Source: Nitrospirota bacterium (GTDB lineage Bacteria; Nitrospirota; Thermodesulfovibrionia; UBA6902). From it: a DNA stretch of 64,000 nt. Under the pieces are notes generated by a model. It did no database searches, was not told the origin of the DNA, and was given only the letters and a program-made list of their open reading frames with translations. The translations under genes and the position numbers were made by a program. The DNA is taken from assembly GCA_016214845.1 (NCBI GenBank), contig JACRMS010000027.1, positions 1 to 64,000 on the forward strand, given 5' to 3'. Positions within the stretch are counted from its first letter, which is position 1; every line of letters starts with the position of its first letter. Positions 44,708-53,482 of this stretch are shown here, piece by piece.

Positions 44708-45382
44708 ATGAAACTTAAACTGACGATTGATATTTTGATTAAAGAAGCAAAAGCGTTTTGCGAGGTTGAATCAACATTTGGTAACCGCGATTTATTCGGG
44801 ATAACTGACGGCAAGGCTGTAGGCACTTTTATAGAGCACAAGTTTCACAATTATCTTTTATTGAAATATAAATATCCGGTTGGTTCTTCCGCAAACGGCA
44901 TTGACATGCCTTCTGAAGATATAAATACAGACATTAAAGTCACCTCTTTTAAACAGCCTCAATCATCATGCCCCTTCAAAAATGCAAGGCAAAAGATATA
45001 TGGACTCGGCTACAATCTACTAATATTTGTTTATGAGAAGAATGATGACCCGAAAAAGAAAGTAGCAAGATTAAACTTTGTAAGCTGCTCGTTTATCCAT
45101 AAAAACCGCACTGCTGATTATCAACTAACACGCACTATCCGCCAAATGCTTGAGAATGATGCTAATGCAGAAGATATAACTGCGTATCTGACAGACCGTA
45201 ATTTGCCGGCTGATGAAATTACCATGAATAAATTGGCACAGGAAATATTAGCTAACCCGCCTGAGCAAGGGTACTTGACTATATCAAACGCGCTACAGTG
45301 GCGGTTACAGTACGGAAGGGTCGTAGATTTAAATGAGAATGTTCAGGGGATAGTTAAAATAGTCAGCAAAGCAGGGAGTTGA
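44708..45382 (+). CDS. Putative type II restriction endonuclease
   Basis: A 224-residue protein directly before a DNA adenine methyltransferase, overlapping it by 4 bases. A PD-(D/E)XK-like active site is suggested by GTFIEHKFHNYLL and, 28 residues on, GIDMPSEDINTDIKVTSF, where D-I-K fits the catalytic D-x-K pattern. The rest has no recognised domain. Pairing with a methyltransferase is the main support. I cannot give the recognition sequence. It is AT-richer than the core genes, as transferred R-M systems often are. Confidence 0.7.
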   Translation: MKLKLTIDILIKEAKAFCEVESTFGNRDLFGITDGKAVGTFIEHKFHNYLLLKYKYPVGSSANGIDMPSEDINTDIKVTSFKQPQSSCPFKNARQKIYGLGYNLLIFVYEKNDDPKKKVARLNFVSCSFIHKNRTADYQLTRTIRQMLENDANAEDITAYLTDRNLPADEITMNKLAQEILANPPEQGYLTISNALQWRLQYGRVVDLNENVQGIVKIVSKAGS

Positions 45383-47217
45383 TAAAGATGCAGTCGGCGA
45401 TAAGACATCTACATCCTGAAACGGTCCAATACCTTAAAGCAAGGTTGGGCGATATATCGGATTTTAATATTGCTAATAAATTATTAGTCGATATTTCAGG
45501 CATTGATATGTTTTTCAGAAATCAAGTGGACTTTCTTACAACGATGGAACTCCTTAAGCCGTGCTTTGCAGTTTCTGAGGAGACTGATAGACGTGAATAT
45601 GGAGATTTTCAGACACCGCTTGAATTGGCAGACTCAATATGTTCGCATCTGGCTATGGAAAATATATCGCCGGATGTAATAATTGAACCCACTTTCGGCA
45701 AAGGCTCGTTCCTGCTTTCAGCCGTCAAGTTTTTTGGCGAAGTAAAAGAAATCTACGGGGTCGAAATCCACGAGCCATACTATTGGCAGACTAAATTCAG
45801 CATCCTTGAATATTTTATAAACAACCGGAAACAGAACAAGCCAAAGATATTTCTCTACCACAATAATGTTTTTCAATTTGATTTTGGCACGCTTGAAAAA
45901 TCCATCGGCAGGCATAATGTTTTGATATTAGGCAATCCGCCGTGGGTGACTAATTCCGAATTGGGAAGCCTGGATGCGCACAATCTTCCCGGCAAAAGCA
46001 ATTTCAAAGCGCTCAATGGACTTGACGCTATCACCGGCAAGGGGAATTTCGATATCTGTGAATACATCATCCTGATGATGATCAAGTTGTTTTCAAAGTA
46101 TAACGGACATATGGCGATGCTGACAAAGAATGCTGTGATTAAAAACCTGATCTACGATTTGCCGAAGATGCACTACAACATTCACAATTCATCTGCCCTG
46201 AGAATTAATGCCAAAGAACACTTTGACGCAGCTGTAGAGGCCTCGTTATTCAAATGCAGCTTTGGCAGGGATGATAACCAATCCGCTTTTTTGTGCAAGG
46301 TCTCAATGCTTGCCTCTCCAAATGTTGTTGAAAATACATTCGGGTGGGTCAGGGACAAATTCGTTTCCGATATGAATTCTTACGGAGCGTATAAAAAATA
46401 TGACGGCGTTTCTCGATACATATGGAGGCAGGGGATAAAACACGACTGCTCAAAGATCATGGAGCTTGACGCGCTGCAAAATAATAAATATCGCAACGGC
46501 TTAGGACAGGAAGCGGATATCGAAGATGAACTGATATACGGATTGATTAAAAGCTCGGATTTGAATTCCCCGGTAATAACGCAGCTCAGGAAATATGTAA
46601 TCGTAACGCAGCGAATGATCGGCGAAAGCACAGCGGCTATAGAATATAAGTCCCCGAAGCTTTATCAATACTTGCTACAGAACAAACATTTATTTGACCA
46701 GAGGAAATCAAGCATTTATAAAAACAAGCCGCTGTTTTCAATATTTGGAGTGGGAGAGTATTCTTTTAAACCATATAAAGTTGCGATCTCCGGTCTTTAT
46801 AAACGCTCATCATTTTCGCTGATATTGCCTGTGAACGGCAAGCCTCTTATGCTGGATGATACATGCTATCATCTGGGCTTTGACAACATCACAGAAGCTG
46901 TTTTTGTTTGGGCTGTTTTGAACAGCGCACATGTTCAGGAACTGCTTGCTTCAATAACTTTCCTGGATGCCAAACGACCGTATACAAAAGATGTCTTAAT
47001 GAGACTCGATATCAATCAGGTTGCTTGTGACATGACTTATGAAGAAATCGCTGCGCGGATTGAGTCATTAGACAAGACAATGTTAGTTAATGTTAATGAA
47101 GACAAATGGATTACCTTTCGTGAACAGTTTGCTGATGTAAAAGACAAAGAAGGAAATCAGCCGTCTTTGTTTGCATGTCAGGTTTTAATTCCCTTGCCCC
47201 TTGCGGGAGAGGGTTAG
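45379..47217 (+). CDS. N6-adenine DNA methyltransferase with a repeat-derived C-terminus
   Basis: A 612-residue SAM-dependent enzyme. Motif I region IEPTFGKGSFLLSAVKFFGE (about residues 100-119), acidic motif II VEIHEPY and motif IV GNPPWVTNSELG (about 187-198) place it with NPPW-type (gamma-class) adenine methyltransferases. The rest is probably the target-recognition region. It is ATGA-coupled to the endonuclease gene. The last residues (LIPLPLAGEG) are encoded by a CCCTTGCCCCTTGCGGGAGAG repeat and do not look like enzyme sequence. Confidence 0.85.
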   Translation: MIKMQSAIRHLHPETVQYLKARLGDISDFNIANKLLVDISGIDMFFRNQVDFLTTMELLKPCFAVSEETDRREYGDFQTPLELADSICSHLAMENISPDVIIEPTFGKGSFLLSAVKFFGEVKEIYGVEIHEPYYWQTKFSILEYFINNRKQNKPKIFLYHNNVFQFDFGTLEKSIGRHNVLILGNPPWVTNSELGSLDAHNLPGKSNFKALNGLDAITGKGNFDICEYIILMMIKLFSKYNGHMAMLTKNAVIKNLIYDLPKMHYNIHNSSALRINAKEHFDAAVEASLFKCSFGRDDNQSAFLCKVSMLASPNVVENTFGWVRDKFVSDMNSYGAYKKYDGVSRYIWRQGIKHDCSKIMELDALQNNKYRNGLGQEADIEDELIYGLIKSSDLNSPVITQLRKYVIVTQRMIGESTAAIEYKSPKLYQYLLQNKHLFDQRKSSIYKNKPLFSIFGVGEYSFKPYKVAISGLYKRSSFSLILPVNGKPLMLDDTCYHLGFDNITEAVFVWAVLNSAHVQELLASITFLDAKRPYTKDVLMRLDINQVACDMTYEEIAARIESLDKTMLVNVNEDKWITFREQFADVKDKEGNQPSLFACQVLIPLPLAGEG

Positions 47218-47223: not shown

Positions 47224-47252
47224 ATTTTTTAATGATTCAAAAAGGAGGTTTT

Positions 47253-47426
47253 ATGGCAACGAACAAACCATATGGAGACAATCACAGACAAGGCGCAATA
47301 AGAGACCGTTCACAGGTTCACAATCCTCACAATGACCGATGGGTGAAGAGAGATACCGATACCGGAAGATTCATTGACCAAAAGGCGGATAAGGGAACGT
47401 TTAAAGGGGTGAGGAAGGAAAGGTAG
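47253..47426 (+). CDS. Small basic protein linked to a restriction-modification locus
   Basis: A 57-residue protein from ATG 47253 after AAAGGAGGTTTT. It is rich in Arg, Lys, Asp and Asn (MATNKPYGDNHRQGAIRDRS ... DTGRFIDQKADKGTFKGVRK) and has no hydrophobic segment. Similar short proteins with a DTGRF(I/V)DQKAD...FKGVRKE tail are familiar next to restriction-modification genes, but their function is not known to me. It may be a nucleic-acid-binding or regulatory protein. Confidence 0.75.
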   Translation: MATNKPYGDNHRQGAIRDRSQVHNPHNDRWVKRDTDTGRFIDQKADKGTFKGVRKER

Positions 47427-47437
47427 AAAAAAGAGCA

Positions 47438-48640
47438 ATGGCAAAACCTCGTACAACATCATTTACTGAAGAATTTGAACCAATATTAATCAGTGCATGG
47501 AATCGGTATGCTGACAGAATTGACAAAAAATTGCTTGAAAAAACAAGAGCAGCAATTACCAATATTAGAAGAGTATATCGGTTTAAAGAAAAATATCCAT
47601 CAAGCATCAACTTTCGGCAGCCTAAATATAGGGCAGGATATCTTGCCGCATTTGGTCAACGACATGCTTATCTTCCATATTGGCATTTAAAAAAAATAAG
47701 AGAATACAATAGAGACTATATTCCTAAACCAAAATCTGGCAATCTTACTATTACATCAATTGGTGCTGGAGCATCAATTGAAATTTACGGTCTTTGTTTG
47801 TTTTATAACGAGGAAAGACAAGACTTGAGACGATTACAATTAAACCTTATTGAAAAAATAGATGAATGGGGTCCAACCCGTAATATAGTTTTTGGAAAAT
47901 TATTGAACGACAAATTTCCCAAAATAAATATAAAACAAAATCATATTAACGCAGATATTACACAAAACGATTGTGTGAAAAAATTTGCAGAATATCATGA
48001 TGCTTTGATCTCCACCGATATTGTACTCATCTACAATGTATTGAATGAAATCGACACTAAATATGCATCAAGTGTCTACCGTAACATTCAATATATTCTT
48101 CGACAAGCTAACGATTCGATCTTAATCTTATTAATGGAGCCAAATGCTAAAAAAGCTCAACCAAGAGTAAAGTGGCTTTTAGAACGATTTGTGGAATCAA
48201 CAGAAATTGTTTTATCGAATAATGATGAAGACATAGTTTTCACAGAAGAACCGATATGTATTACTCTTGAGGAGACCAGTGAAGGACTAAATGATAGGCT
48301 TTTTAATCAACCCGGACCTCATTTTGAGAATTCTTTAAAAAGAACGCATATGGCATGTTTTGTTAAGCCTTGGTCTCCGATTCCATATGAAAAGGTACAA
48401 GAACAACTTGAAAAATATCAGATAAGACGAGCGAAAGGGAAATTTGTAACAACAGCAAAAGGTATAGATAATGAACAACAGAATTTTTTAAATACGTGCA
48501 ATGGAATTAAAATTTCATTAACAGAGAGTCAATCAGAGGATGAAGGAAGTGAAACTCTGGATTCCCGTTTTCACGGGAATGACGGAAAGATTCCGGACAT
48601 TCATCCTTCGCAGTGCTGCGGAGAACGGAAGCCGGAATGA
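47438..48640 (+). CDS. AT-rich Rsm22-like/SAM-fold protein with a repeat-derived tail
   Basis: A 400-residue protein. The central part has SIGAGASIEIYGLCLFY (about residues 109-125), which fits a SAM-binding motif I, and VLIYNVLNEIDTKY at the motif IV position; the overall outline recalls Rsm22-like ribosomal methyltransferases. The last 30 residues (from TLDSRFHGND) are encoded by a CTGGATTCCCG palindrome and lie outside any domain. Base composition is clearly lower in GC than the neighbours, so transfer is likely. It follows the R-M locus and may be a defence or modification protein. Catalysis is not shown. Confidence 0.65.
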   Translation: MAKPRTTSFTEEFEPILISAWNRYADRIDKKLLEKTRAAITNIRRVYRFKEKYPSSINFRQPKYRAGYLAAFGQRHAYLPYWHLKKIREYNRDYIPKPKSGNLTITSIGAGASIEIYGLCLFYNEERQDLRRLQLNLIEKIDEWGPTRNIVFGKLLNDKFPKINIKQNHINADITQNDCVKKFAEYHDALISTDIVLIYNVLNEIDTKYASSVYRNIQYILRQANDSILILLMEPNAKKAQPRVKWLLERFVESTEIVLSNNDEDIVFTEEPICITLEETSEGLNDRLFNQPGPHFENSLKRTHMACFVKPWSPIPYEKVQEQLEKYQIRRAKGKFVTTAKGIDNEQQNFLNTCNGIKISLTESQSEDEGSETLDSRFHGNDGKIPDIHPSQCCGERKPE

Positions 48641-48643
48641 CAG
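48557..48643. repeat. CTGGATTCCCG...CGGGAATGACGG and GATTCCGG...CCGGAATGACAG repeats
   Basis: Two consecutive elements: CTGGATTCCCG TTTTCA CGGGAATGACGG and GATTCCGGAC...GAAGCCGGAATGACAG. They supply the 3' end and stop of the Rsm22-like gene. The first gives the peptide LDSRFHGND also encoded at 26331-26359. Confidence 0.8.
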
Positions 48644-48663
48644 TTGAATAGATGGAGATATAA

Positions 48664-50685
48664 TTGGACGCATTAAAGAACGCTTTTAAAATCCTAAAGA
48701 AAGAATTCCCGCACTACGAGGACCGGCCGCAGCAGAGGGAGATGGCGGAGGCGGTGTATTCCTGTCTTCAGAACAATAAGAGGCTGCTTGTGGAGGCCGG
48801 AACTGGGGTCGGGAAATCTTTTGCTTATCTCATTCCGGCGATATTGTCGAATGAAAAGACGATTGTCTCTACAGCTTCAATCGCGCTTCAGGACCAGCTC
48901 ATAAACAAGGACCTGTCCTTTCTTCAGAGGGCAATGCCGCAGAGGTTTTCCTTTGCCATGCTCAAGGGCAAGAACAATTACCTCTGCCTGAAACGCGAGA
49001 GGGAATTTTCTGAGATGACTGAATCATTCATCAGGTTCCGGGAGTGGGCGGCTGAGACTGAGACGGGCGACAAGGATGAGCTTTCATTCATCCCTGATTT
49101 CTGGTCGAGGGTCTGCGGCGATTCAAACGACTGCGGAGTCACGCAATGCCCTTTTTACAGTGAGTGTTTTTATTACGCGCATTTCAGGGACTTGTTCAGG
49201 AAGGACATCATCGTAGTCAATCATCACCTTCTTATGTACGATCTCCTGTCGGGATTCAACATGCTTCCCTTTCATAAACAGTTGATCATTGACGAGGCGC
49301 ACCAGATAGAAAACGTTGTCTCGCACGTCTTCGGCAGTGTCCTGAATTATTCGCATGTGATATGGCTCCTCTATCGTCTGAGAGGATTGAAGATAGCGGT
49401 TGACCAGCTTTTTCAGCAGGTGGATTCATTTTTTAACACCCCCCTGAATCCCCCCTTACTAAGGGGGAAAGTAAAGAGTGCTGCGTCTTTTTCAAAGGGG
49501 AATGAAAAAATTCCTGACGCGGTTGTCGAAGGATTGAAAAAGCTGAAAGAGCAGCTTGCGCTTGATAAGGTGCTTCACAGGTTGAATCTCTACAAGGACT
49601 CGGCTGAGAGCGAGGAGCTGAGGGACCGGGCGGAAACGACAATGCTATATGTGAGGTCTCTTGAAATCACGATAGATGATTTTATCGCGCGGGAGGATGA
49701 AGGCAAGGTTTATTACATGACGGTCAATAAAAAAACGCTGGAGCTGAAGAGCAATCTTGTCGAGTCGAAGAAGCCGTTTTGCGACATGCTGAACGGTTAT
49801 GAAAGCGTGGCAATGACATCCGCCACCCTGACGACAGCGGGAGAATTCAACTATATCAAAGAGAGGCTCGGAATAGTTTGTCACCCTGGACCTTGCCCTG
49901 AACTTGTTTCACGGGTTGATTCAGGGTCTAAAGAAGAGATGCCGAAACAAGTTCGGCATGACAGTTCAGATGTAGACTTCAAAGAGATGGTGATCGGGTC
50001 GCCTTTTGATTACAAGACGCAGGCGCTCCTTTACCTTGATAAGAAACTGCCGACTCCTGACAGGGAGAACAGTCAGCTTTTTCAGACGGAGAGTCTCAGG
50101 GTAATCGAGGGGCTTATCAATGCGTCAAAGGGCAGGGCGCTGGTGCTATTTACTTCATACAGCCACCTGCGGTTTGTGTCTGAAAATATAAAAACAGAGT
50201 ATCCATTCAAGTCCCAGGGCGACATGCCGCCTGCGAGATTGATCGATTGGTTCAAAGCCACTCCTGATTCAGTCCTCCTTGCGACCGCTACATTCTGGCA
50301 GGGGATCGATATCAAGGGCGAAGACCTGAGCCTCGTAGTGATTGTTAAAATGCCTTTTGGCTCTCCGGGAGACCCTGTGTACGATGAAAGGTGCAAGAGG
50401 CTGGGTTCCCGCTGGTTCAATGACCTCACGCTTCCGTCAGCCATACTTCAATTGCGGCAGGGTTTCGGGCGTCTCATAAGAAGCTCTGACGAGCGCGGCG
50501 TGGTTGCCATTCTTGACGGACGGCTTGTCAGGAGCTCATACGGCAGGAACATTATATCTTCCCTGCCGGAGATGGATGTTGTTCACGACATTGAGGACGT
50601 GAAGATGTTTTTTGGTTCTGATGTAAGGGCGGGTTTGAAACCCGCCCATGCAAAGCGGGTTAAAGGAATAAAGAGCAAATGTTAA
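48664..50685 (+). CDS. DinG-family Fe-S DNA helicase with three in-frame repeat inserts
   Basis: A 673-residue XPD-like superfamily-2 helicase of the DinG/YoaA type. Start TTG 48664. Walker A region VEAGTGVGKSFAYLIPA (about 37-53), Fe-S cysteines in CGDSNDCGVTQCPFYSEC, DEAH box IDEAHQIENV (about 210) and motif VI LRQGFGRLIRSS. It unwinds DNA in replication and repair. Residues about 259-280 (NTPLNPPLLRG...), 406-433 (CHPGPCPELVSRVDSGSKEE...) and 654-660 (VRAGLKPAH) are each encoded by a known palindromic repeat type. The first and second sit between conserved motifs; the third is at the C-terminus. Confidence 0.9.
   Translation: MDALKNAFKILKKEFPHYEDRPQQREMAEAVYSCLQNNKRLLVEAGTGVGKSFAYLIPAILSNEKTIVSTASIALQDQLINKDLSFLQRAMPQRFSFAMLKGKNNYLCLKREREFSEMTESFIRFREWAAETETGDKDELSFIPDFWSRVCGDSNDCGVTQCPFYSECFYYAHFRDLFRKDIIVVNHHLLMYDLLSGFNMLPFHKQLIIDEAHQIENVVSHVFGSVLNYSHVIWLLYRLRGLKIAVDQLFQQVDSFFNTPLNPPLLRGKVKSAASFSKGNEKIPDAVVEGLKKLKEQLALDKVLHRLNLYKDSAESEELRDRAETTMLYVRSLEITIDDFIAREDEGKVYYMTVNKKTLELKSNLVESKKPFCDMLNGYESVAMTSATLTTAGEFNYIKERLGIVCHPGPCPELVSRVDSGSKEEMPKQVRHDSSDVDFKEMVIGSPFDYKTQALLYLDKKLPTPDRENSQLFQTESLRVIEGLINASKGRALVLFTSYSHLRFVSENIKTEYPFKSQGDMPPARLIDWFKATPDSVLLATATFWQGIDIKGEDLSLVVIVKMPFGSPGDPVYDERCKRLGSRWFNDLTLPSAILQLRQGFGRLIRSSDERGVVAILDGRLVRSSYGRNIISSLPEMDVVHDIEDVKMFFGSDVRAGLKPAHAKRVKGIKSKC
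49438..49503. repeat. CCCCCCTGAATCCCCCCTTACT repeat in the DinG gene
   Basis: CCCCCTGAATCCCCCCTT ACT AAGGGGGAAAG, continuing to CTTTTTCAAAGGGGAATG. The frame stays open and gives NTPLNPPLLRGKVKSAASFS. This peptide type is familiar as a repeat translation in many genomes. Confidence 0.8.
49880..49963. repeat. CACCCTGGAC...CAGGGTCT / CCGAAACAAGTTCGGCATGACA repeat in the DinG gene
   Basis: A two-part element of the same family as 21057-21130 and 15806-15865. It lies in frame and gives 28 residues (CHPGPCPELVSRVDSGSKEE and EMPKQVRHDSS) between helicase motifs. Confidence 0.8.
50627..50647. repeat. GGGCGGGTTTGAAACCCGCCC palindrome in the DinG gene
   Basis: A perfect palindrome with GTAA upstream, 38 bases before the gene end. 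It encodes RAGLKPA near the C-terminus. Same family as 15874-15898. Confidence 0.85.
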
Positions 50686-53457: not shown

Positions 53458-53482
53458 GTAGGGGCAGGTTTTAAACCTGCCC
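53458..53482. repeat. GTAGGGGCAGGTTTTAAACCTGCCC palindrome
   Basis: Palindrome GGGCAGGTTTTAAACCTGCCC preceded by GTAG. Same family as 15874-15898. The preceding 53418-53446 holds AGTAGTCAGTAGTCGG direct repeats. Confidence 0.8.

Follow-up and report, generated by a model that had tools for sequence, protein, structure and literature searches.

The dinG gene of an uncultured groundwater-metagenome Nitrospirota bacterium carries three segments that are very probably short, non-autonomous palindromic insertions of the REP/RPE-like kind, drawn from three unrelated repeat families, confined by selection to tolerant loops and retained as passengers with little effect. The gene lies in a 64,000-nucleotide stretch of contig JACRMS010000027.1 (the window), and a sequence-only reading of that stretch had proposed three different repeat families in this one gene, in frame and outside the conserved motifs; all three were found where it had placed them.

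The DinG helicase and its three variable sites

The open reading frame at 48664-50685 on the forward strand encodes 673 amino acids from a TTG start with GGAG ahead of it. The product matches the Pfam family Helicase_C_2 (PF13307; E 2.9e-36) and the DinG of Escherichia coli (6fwr), both in sequence (E 1.9e-40) and in predicted fold (Foldseek E 2.9e-38). None of its motifs (GTGVGKS at residue 46, DEAH at 210, SATL at 386 and QGFGRLIR at 599) is touched by the inserts, which also leave free the Fe-S cysteines C108, C157, C162 and C168, kept in all orthologs covering them. These motifs, the C-terminal helicase domain, the four cysteines and the fold mark the product as a DinG/XPD-type Fe-S helicase with predicted 5'-3' helicase activity. 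Strong purifying selection acts on its core (dN/dS of 0.054 against the sister gene), which rules out a pseudogene, and the protein is presumably made and active. About half of the order's genomes lack the gene, as expected for a dispensable repair helicase.

The features discussed below are as follows.

48556..48645, + strand: dRS3-like repeat region between the upstream ORF and dinG, encoding the C-terminal tail of the upstream ORF (from sequence)
48664..50685, + strand: DinG/XPD-type Fe-S helicase gene (Pfam, 6fwr sequence and Foldseek matches, core dN/dS)
49436..49478, + strand: site 1, nested CCCCC/GGGGG palindromic element, residues ~258-272 (sequence and family matches; other subtypes here in relatives)
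49487..49502, + strand: site 1, apparent second half-element (CTTTTTCAAAGGGGAA), residues ~275-280 (by-eye match to CCCCCTTTTTCAAAGGGGG copies)
49879..49929, + strand: site 2, left dimer unit TGTCACCCTGGACCTTG[CCCTGAACTTGTTTCACGGG]TTGATTCAGGGTCT (family matches; extended form also at L127; absent from the sister genome)
49937..49963, - strand: site 2, right dimer unit TGTCATGCCGAACTTGTTTCGGCATCT (family matches; absent from the sister genome)
50623..50651, + strand: site 3, GTAAGGGCGGGTTTGAAACCCGCCCATGC palindrome, residues ~653-663, in the C-terminal tail (same family in ortholog L034, decayed copy in L061)

In an alignment of ~47 orthologs from the order and beyond, to which a whole-order search added no others, the three sites are length-variable spots within a protein that otherwise aligns well. 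Most relatives have gaps at the three positions, and none was seen to carry the window's residues over DNA free of palindromes: relatives either lack the residues or have different palindromes there. The AlphaFold model (mean pLDDT 84, 45 aligned sequences) contains exactly three segments with pLDDT below 50, at residues 264-280, 407-436 and 654-673, values partly to be expected given the small number of aligned sequences across the inserts. All three inserts are thereby predicted to lie in disordered loops. Hairpins with a stem of at least 9 are concentrated in the same places, with 9 of 15 inside the three sites against 11.6% of codons there (binomial P 1e-5); this test takes its site definitions from the window gene and the alignment, and it includes related rows, which are not independent.

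The upstream ORF (47438-48640) has no Pfam match, and its tail, LDSRFHGNDG..., is encoded by dRS3-like repeat DNA. The interval 47224-48556 is not the same in the sister contig, where the flanking matches stand ~6.9 kb apart, and the neighbouring gene at 45379-47217, with N6-methylase/Eco57I-like matches, ends in the repeat-like peptide PLPLAGEG.

Repeat families and their recurrence by lineage

Each site belongs to a family dispersed through the 3.45-Mb genome, and reversed-pattern controls gave zero matches for all three. The sequence CCCCCTGAATCCCCCC at 49440-49455 of site 1 sits inside a nested palindrome around CCCCCTTACTAAGGGGG; in better genomic copies the palindrome reads TCCCCCTnnnTCCCCCTTTnnnAAAGGGGGAnnnAGGGGGA, and an apparent half of a second one lies downstream. 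The genome holds a single exact copy of this 16-mer, with no other in the window, so "repeat" holds here for the family and not for that string; as an exact-string count is misleading for this site, a looser core (CCCCCTTNNTNAAGGGGG, ≤1 mismatch) was required, which has 12+9 genomic matches and an extended context common to about 15 genomic places. Other repeat subtypes occupy site 1 in orthologs L061/L034, L032, L017, L018 and L075, and the repeat-derived peptides in relatives are of the PPLKLRGG, PPLSKGG and PPFSKGG types. Broadly, the insert subtype tracks the repeat content of the host genome: G041 and G008, where CCCCCCTTTNNCAAAGGGGGG is abundant, have it in dinG; in G001, G004, G009 and G015 it is rare, and their dinG genes have no intact site-1 palindrome.

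Across 49436-49520, the sister gene is closer to the more distant L034 (87%) than to the window gene (43%), which suggests local replacement or recombination of its site-1 tract. Recombination is possible because the L061 tract, 87% identical to L034 against 72-80% elsewhere, is unusually close to it; a new insertion in the window genome is accordingly only one reading of the difference between the sisters at this site.

Site 2 (49879-49963; residues 406-434) is a head-to-head dimer of TGTCA-stem-loop-stem-TCT units. The family units read TGTC-A-CCCTGAA(CTTGT)TTCAGGG-T-TCT, are paired head to head in most copies, and have 32+33 genomic matches to TGTCANNCTGAANTTGTTTCAGNNTCT at ≤3 mismatches. 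In the window gene, the left unit has an extra stem nested in the first, and its odd extended arm, CCCTGGACCTTG...TTGATTCAGGGTCT, recurs at L127. This insert gives the clearest case of an in-frame insertion absent from orthologs: the 92% identical contig of the sister species (97% core amino acid identity) lacks it, a net difference of 84 bp with the frame kept, as do nearly all other orthologs. The recognised family is present at this site in two lineages only, the window gene and the distant ortholog L071, where a canonical dimer occupies the same place and encodes CHPELVSGS...RVQHD; a handful of others have different extra sequence. For a MITE, a parent insertion sequence and a target-site duplication would be expected; no clear duplication was found at site 2 or at polymorphic copies in the sister comparison, and the search for a parent element covered Y1_Tnp loci.

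Site 3 is a GTAG...GGTTTNAAACC palindrome, GTAAGGGCGGGTTTGAAACCCGCCC, within the last 21 codons. Its family gave 52+50 genomic strand matches to GTAGGGGCRGGTTTNAAACCYGCCC (≤3 mismatches), a single copy usually being counted twice. Ortholog L032 carries a palindrome related to the GTAG-like one, and L071 and L075 carry unrelated repeats (TPHPRPLPQGERG and LTPPSPPLNLRG, respectively). The dN/dS of this tail against the sister is ~1.1, on 22 codons, compared with 0.054 for the core. After residue ~652, several orthologs (L004, L016, L017, L039, L047 and others) have an extra C-terminal region, LAASALGKLARFKPEIYKAV...EKPQVRQYA, HEAT-like by eye, which the window gene does not have; site 3 therefore corresponds to a linker in those proteins.

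On a tree built without the columns of the three sites, the parsimony minimum is four changes at site 1, two at site 2 (for the recognised family) and four at site 3, counts that do not separate gain from loss. Since four changes suffice at site 1, part of the recurrence there reflects shared ancestry followed by replacement or recombination. Synteny with the sister genome (G006) covers much of the window, at ~92% DNA identity and with one block at 83%, and the insertion differences show repeats gained or lost between close species. Besides the dinG site-2 insert, several of these differences are repeats of the same families, among them a 27-bp palindrome of the site-3 type at 53461, present in the window only, and a 53-bp dimer of the site-2 type opposite 36386, present in the sister only.

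Probable protein tolerance and alternative explanations

DinG is not unique in this respect, for the same families lie in frame in many other genes of the genome. Among the fetched family copies, on which in-gene counts rest, they were found in over a dozen, including P-type ATPase, AddA/UvrD-like helicase (two families), UDPGP-domain protein, ArgRS, MnmE, radical-SAM, methyltransferase and glycosyltransferase genes. A rough simulation of uniform insertion, with in-gene counts and gene lengths assumed, predicts 1.5e-4 genes per genome with all three families, against one seen, and 0.13 with at least two, against at least three seen; insertions are thus unevenly spread over genes, as tolerance predicts. 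Across 24 genomes (L182-L205), a loop of the AddA/UvrD-like helicase near L182 residue 616 holds different palindromic families by genome. Sometimes two families occur in one gene, and two further variable repeat sites lie at residues ~133 and ~764.

These palindromes are dispersed repeats of the kind that constitutes intragenic REP/RPE-like elements. They would move or be copied around the genome and insert anywhere, with in-gene copies surviving where the frame is kept, no stop is introduced and the loop tolerates extra residues. In DinG, the tolerant places would be the loop joining helix 247-258 to helix 285-298, the connector from helix 396-402 to strand 439-445, and the C-terminal tail; for that reason, elements may repeatedly have filled these places, been replaced and decayed from one lineage to another. 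The encoded peptides would be disordered passengers with little effect. As to the mobilising enzyme, none of 32 Y1_Tnp loci (2 here, 30 in ten related genomes) lies near the three families, nor was a RAYT gene flanked by the repeat, as in GTAG-type REPs, found among them. Both Y1_Tnp genes of this genome have terminal inverted repeats that differ from the three families. Many of the Y1_Tnp loci L091, L092 and L207-L229 are flanked by inverted repeats of the GGGGTCAG or GGGACACATCCC type, similar to the TIRs described in PMC3733652.

The sequence-only reading left the choice between a tolerant protein and an insertion hot spot; the data support that pairing, and since families unrelated to one another occupy the same loops, tolerance is a better fit than a DNA-level target. 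An insertion machinery that recognises dinG sequences, with protein tolerance secondary, would explain why the same three places are hit again across lineages and why one clean difference between the sisters in a dimer of the site-2 type falls directly before TGAC. It is nonetheless unlikely, given that the families found in the same loops have different ends, that the orthologs show no evident target sequence in common, and that the AddA/UvrD-like gene behaves likewise at its own loops; that two unrelated genes host a mixture of families in the same loops is evidence against a DNA target.

Ordinary family loops containing chance palindromes, with no mobile DNA, can be set aside almost entirely. 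Length variation is common in loops and the exact site-1 16-mer is single in the genome, but near-identical DNA copies occur genome-wide with controls at zero, copies are read in two frames and also lie between genes, and the site-2 residues are missing from nearly all orthologs. It is also improbable that the inserts are functional, with palindromes acting in DNA or mRNA or loops tuning the helicase. Intragenic REPs are reported in PMC3733652 to be concentrated in replication and repair genes, and two of the genes found here encode repair-type helicases; against this, the inserts are lacking in most orthologs and differ in sequence between sister species, site 3 is decayed in L061 with a dN/dS near 1 at this site, and the same families lie in ArgRS, MnmE, P-type ATPase and glycosyltransferase genes. 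A further conjecture, held with very little confidence, is that many palindrome families prefer the loops of repair helicases (DinG, AddA/UvrD-like), either through a common mobiliser or because altered helicases help the repeats persist.

Relation to known palindromic elements

Rickettsia palindromic elements (Ogata 2000, 2002), the classic case, comprise, as described in PMC10969869, several families that lie in frame within functionally unrelated genes, as found here. Those elements are ~150 bp in length, encode conserved peptides and belong to an obligate intracellular genus, whereas the present ones measure ~29-85 bp, occur in a groundwater-metagenome Nitrospirota and reach three families per gene. 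The GTAG and CGTC REPs surveyed by Di Nocera et al. (2013; PMC3733652) are closer: that survey describes in-frame REPs, including head-to-head dimers, many of which lie in genes of replication or repair and at times share a gene with a second one, with different REPs near the same recB site in two Xanthomonas species. Loops are named there as the likely reason for REP tolerance, and a function of intragenic REPs for repair genes and mutator strains is the subject of speculation. The site-2 family has the 8-9 bp stem, 4-5 nt loop, 3-nt tail and head-to-head dimers of CGTC-type REPs and no linked transposase among the 32 Y1_Tnp loci, although its tag is TGTC in nearly all copies and CGTC in only a few. 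The site-3 family has the GTAG of the GTAG type, but the tag is mostly paired, since most copies end in CTAC, and does not stand unpaired at one end. Site 1 carries neither tag.

The host protein resembles the DinG-like helicases reviewed in PMC11981726 in motifs, Fe-S cysteines and fold; some of these, according to passages of that review, have structured insertions in the motor domain, in contrast to the predicted disordered, repeat-derived inserts described here. REPs read in frame, frequently within repair genes, are already in the literature. What is new is the phylum, the mixture of families and the unusually clear return of repeats to the same loops. The passages of PMC3733652 contain no Nitrospirota ("Nitrospira" is unmatched) and no DinG, and a literature search on the encoded peptides and on DinG with REPs returned nothing specific. 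Together, these observations add Nitrospirota to the bacteria whose proteins absorb small palindromic repeats, and provide, in the DinG and AddA/UvrD-like helicases, two genes whose loops have been shared by several unrelated families. With such multi-family loops, comparison alone can test whether target choice or protein tolerance is at work. They also carry a warning for annotation, in that GAGLKPAP, PPLxKGG and CHPELVSGS peptides in such proteins represent repeat DNA and not conserved function.
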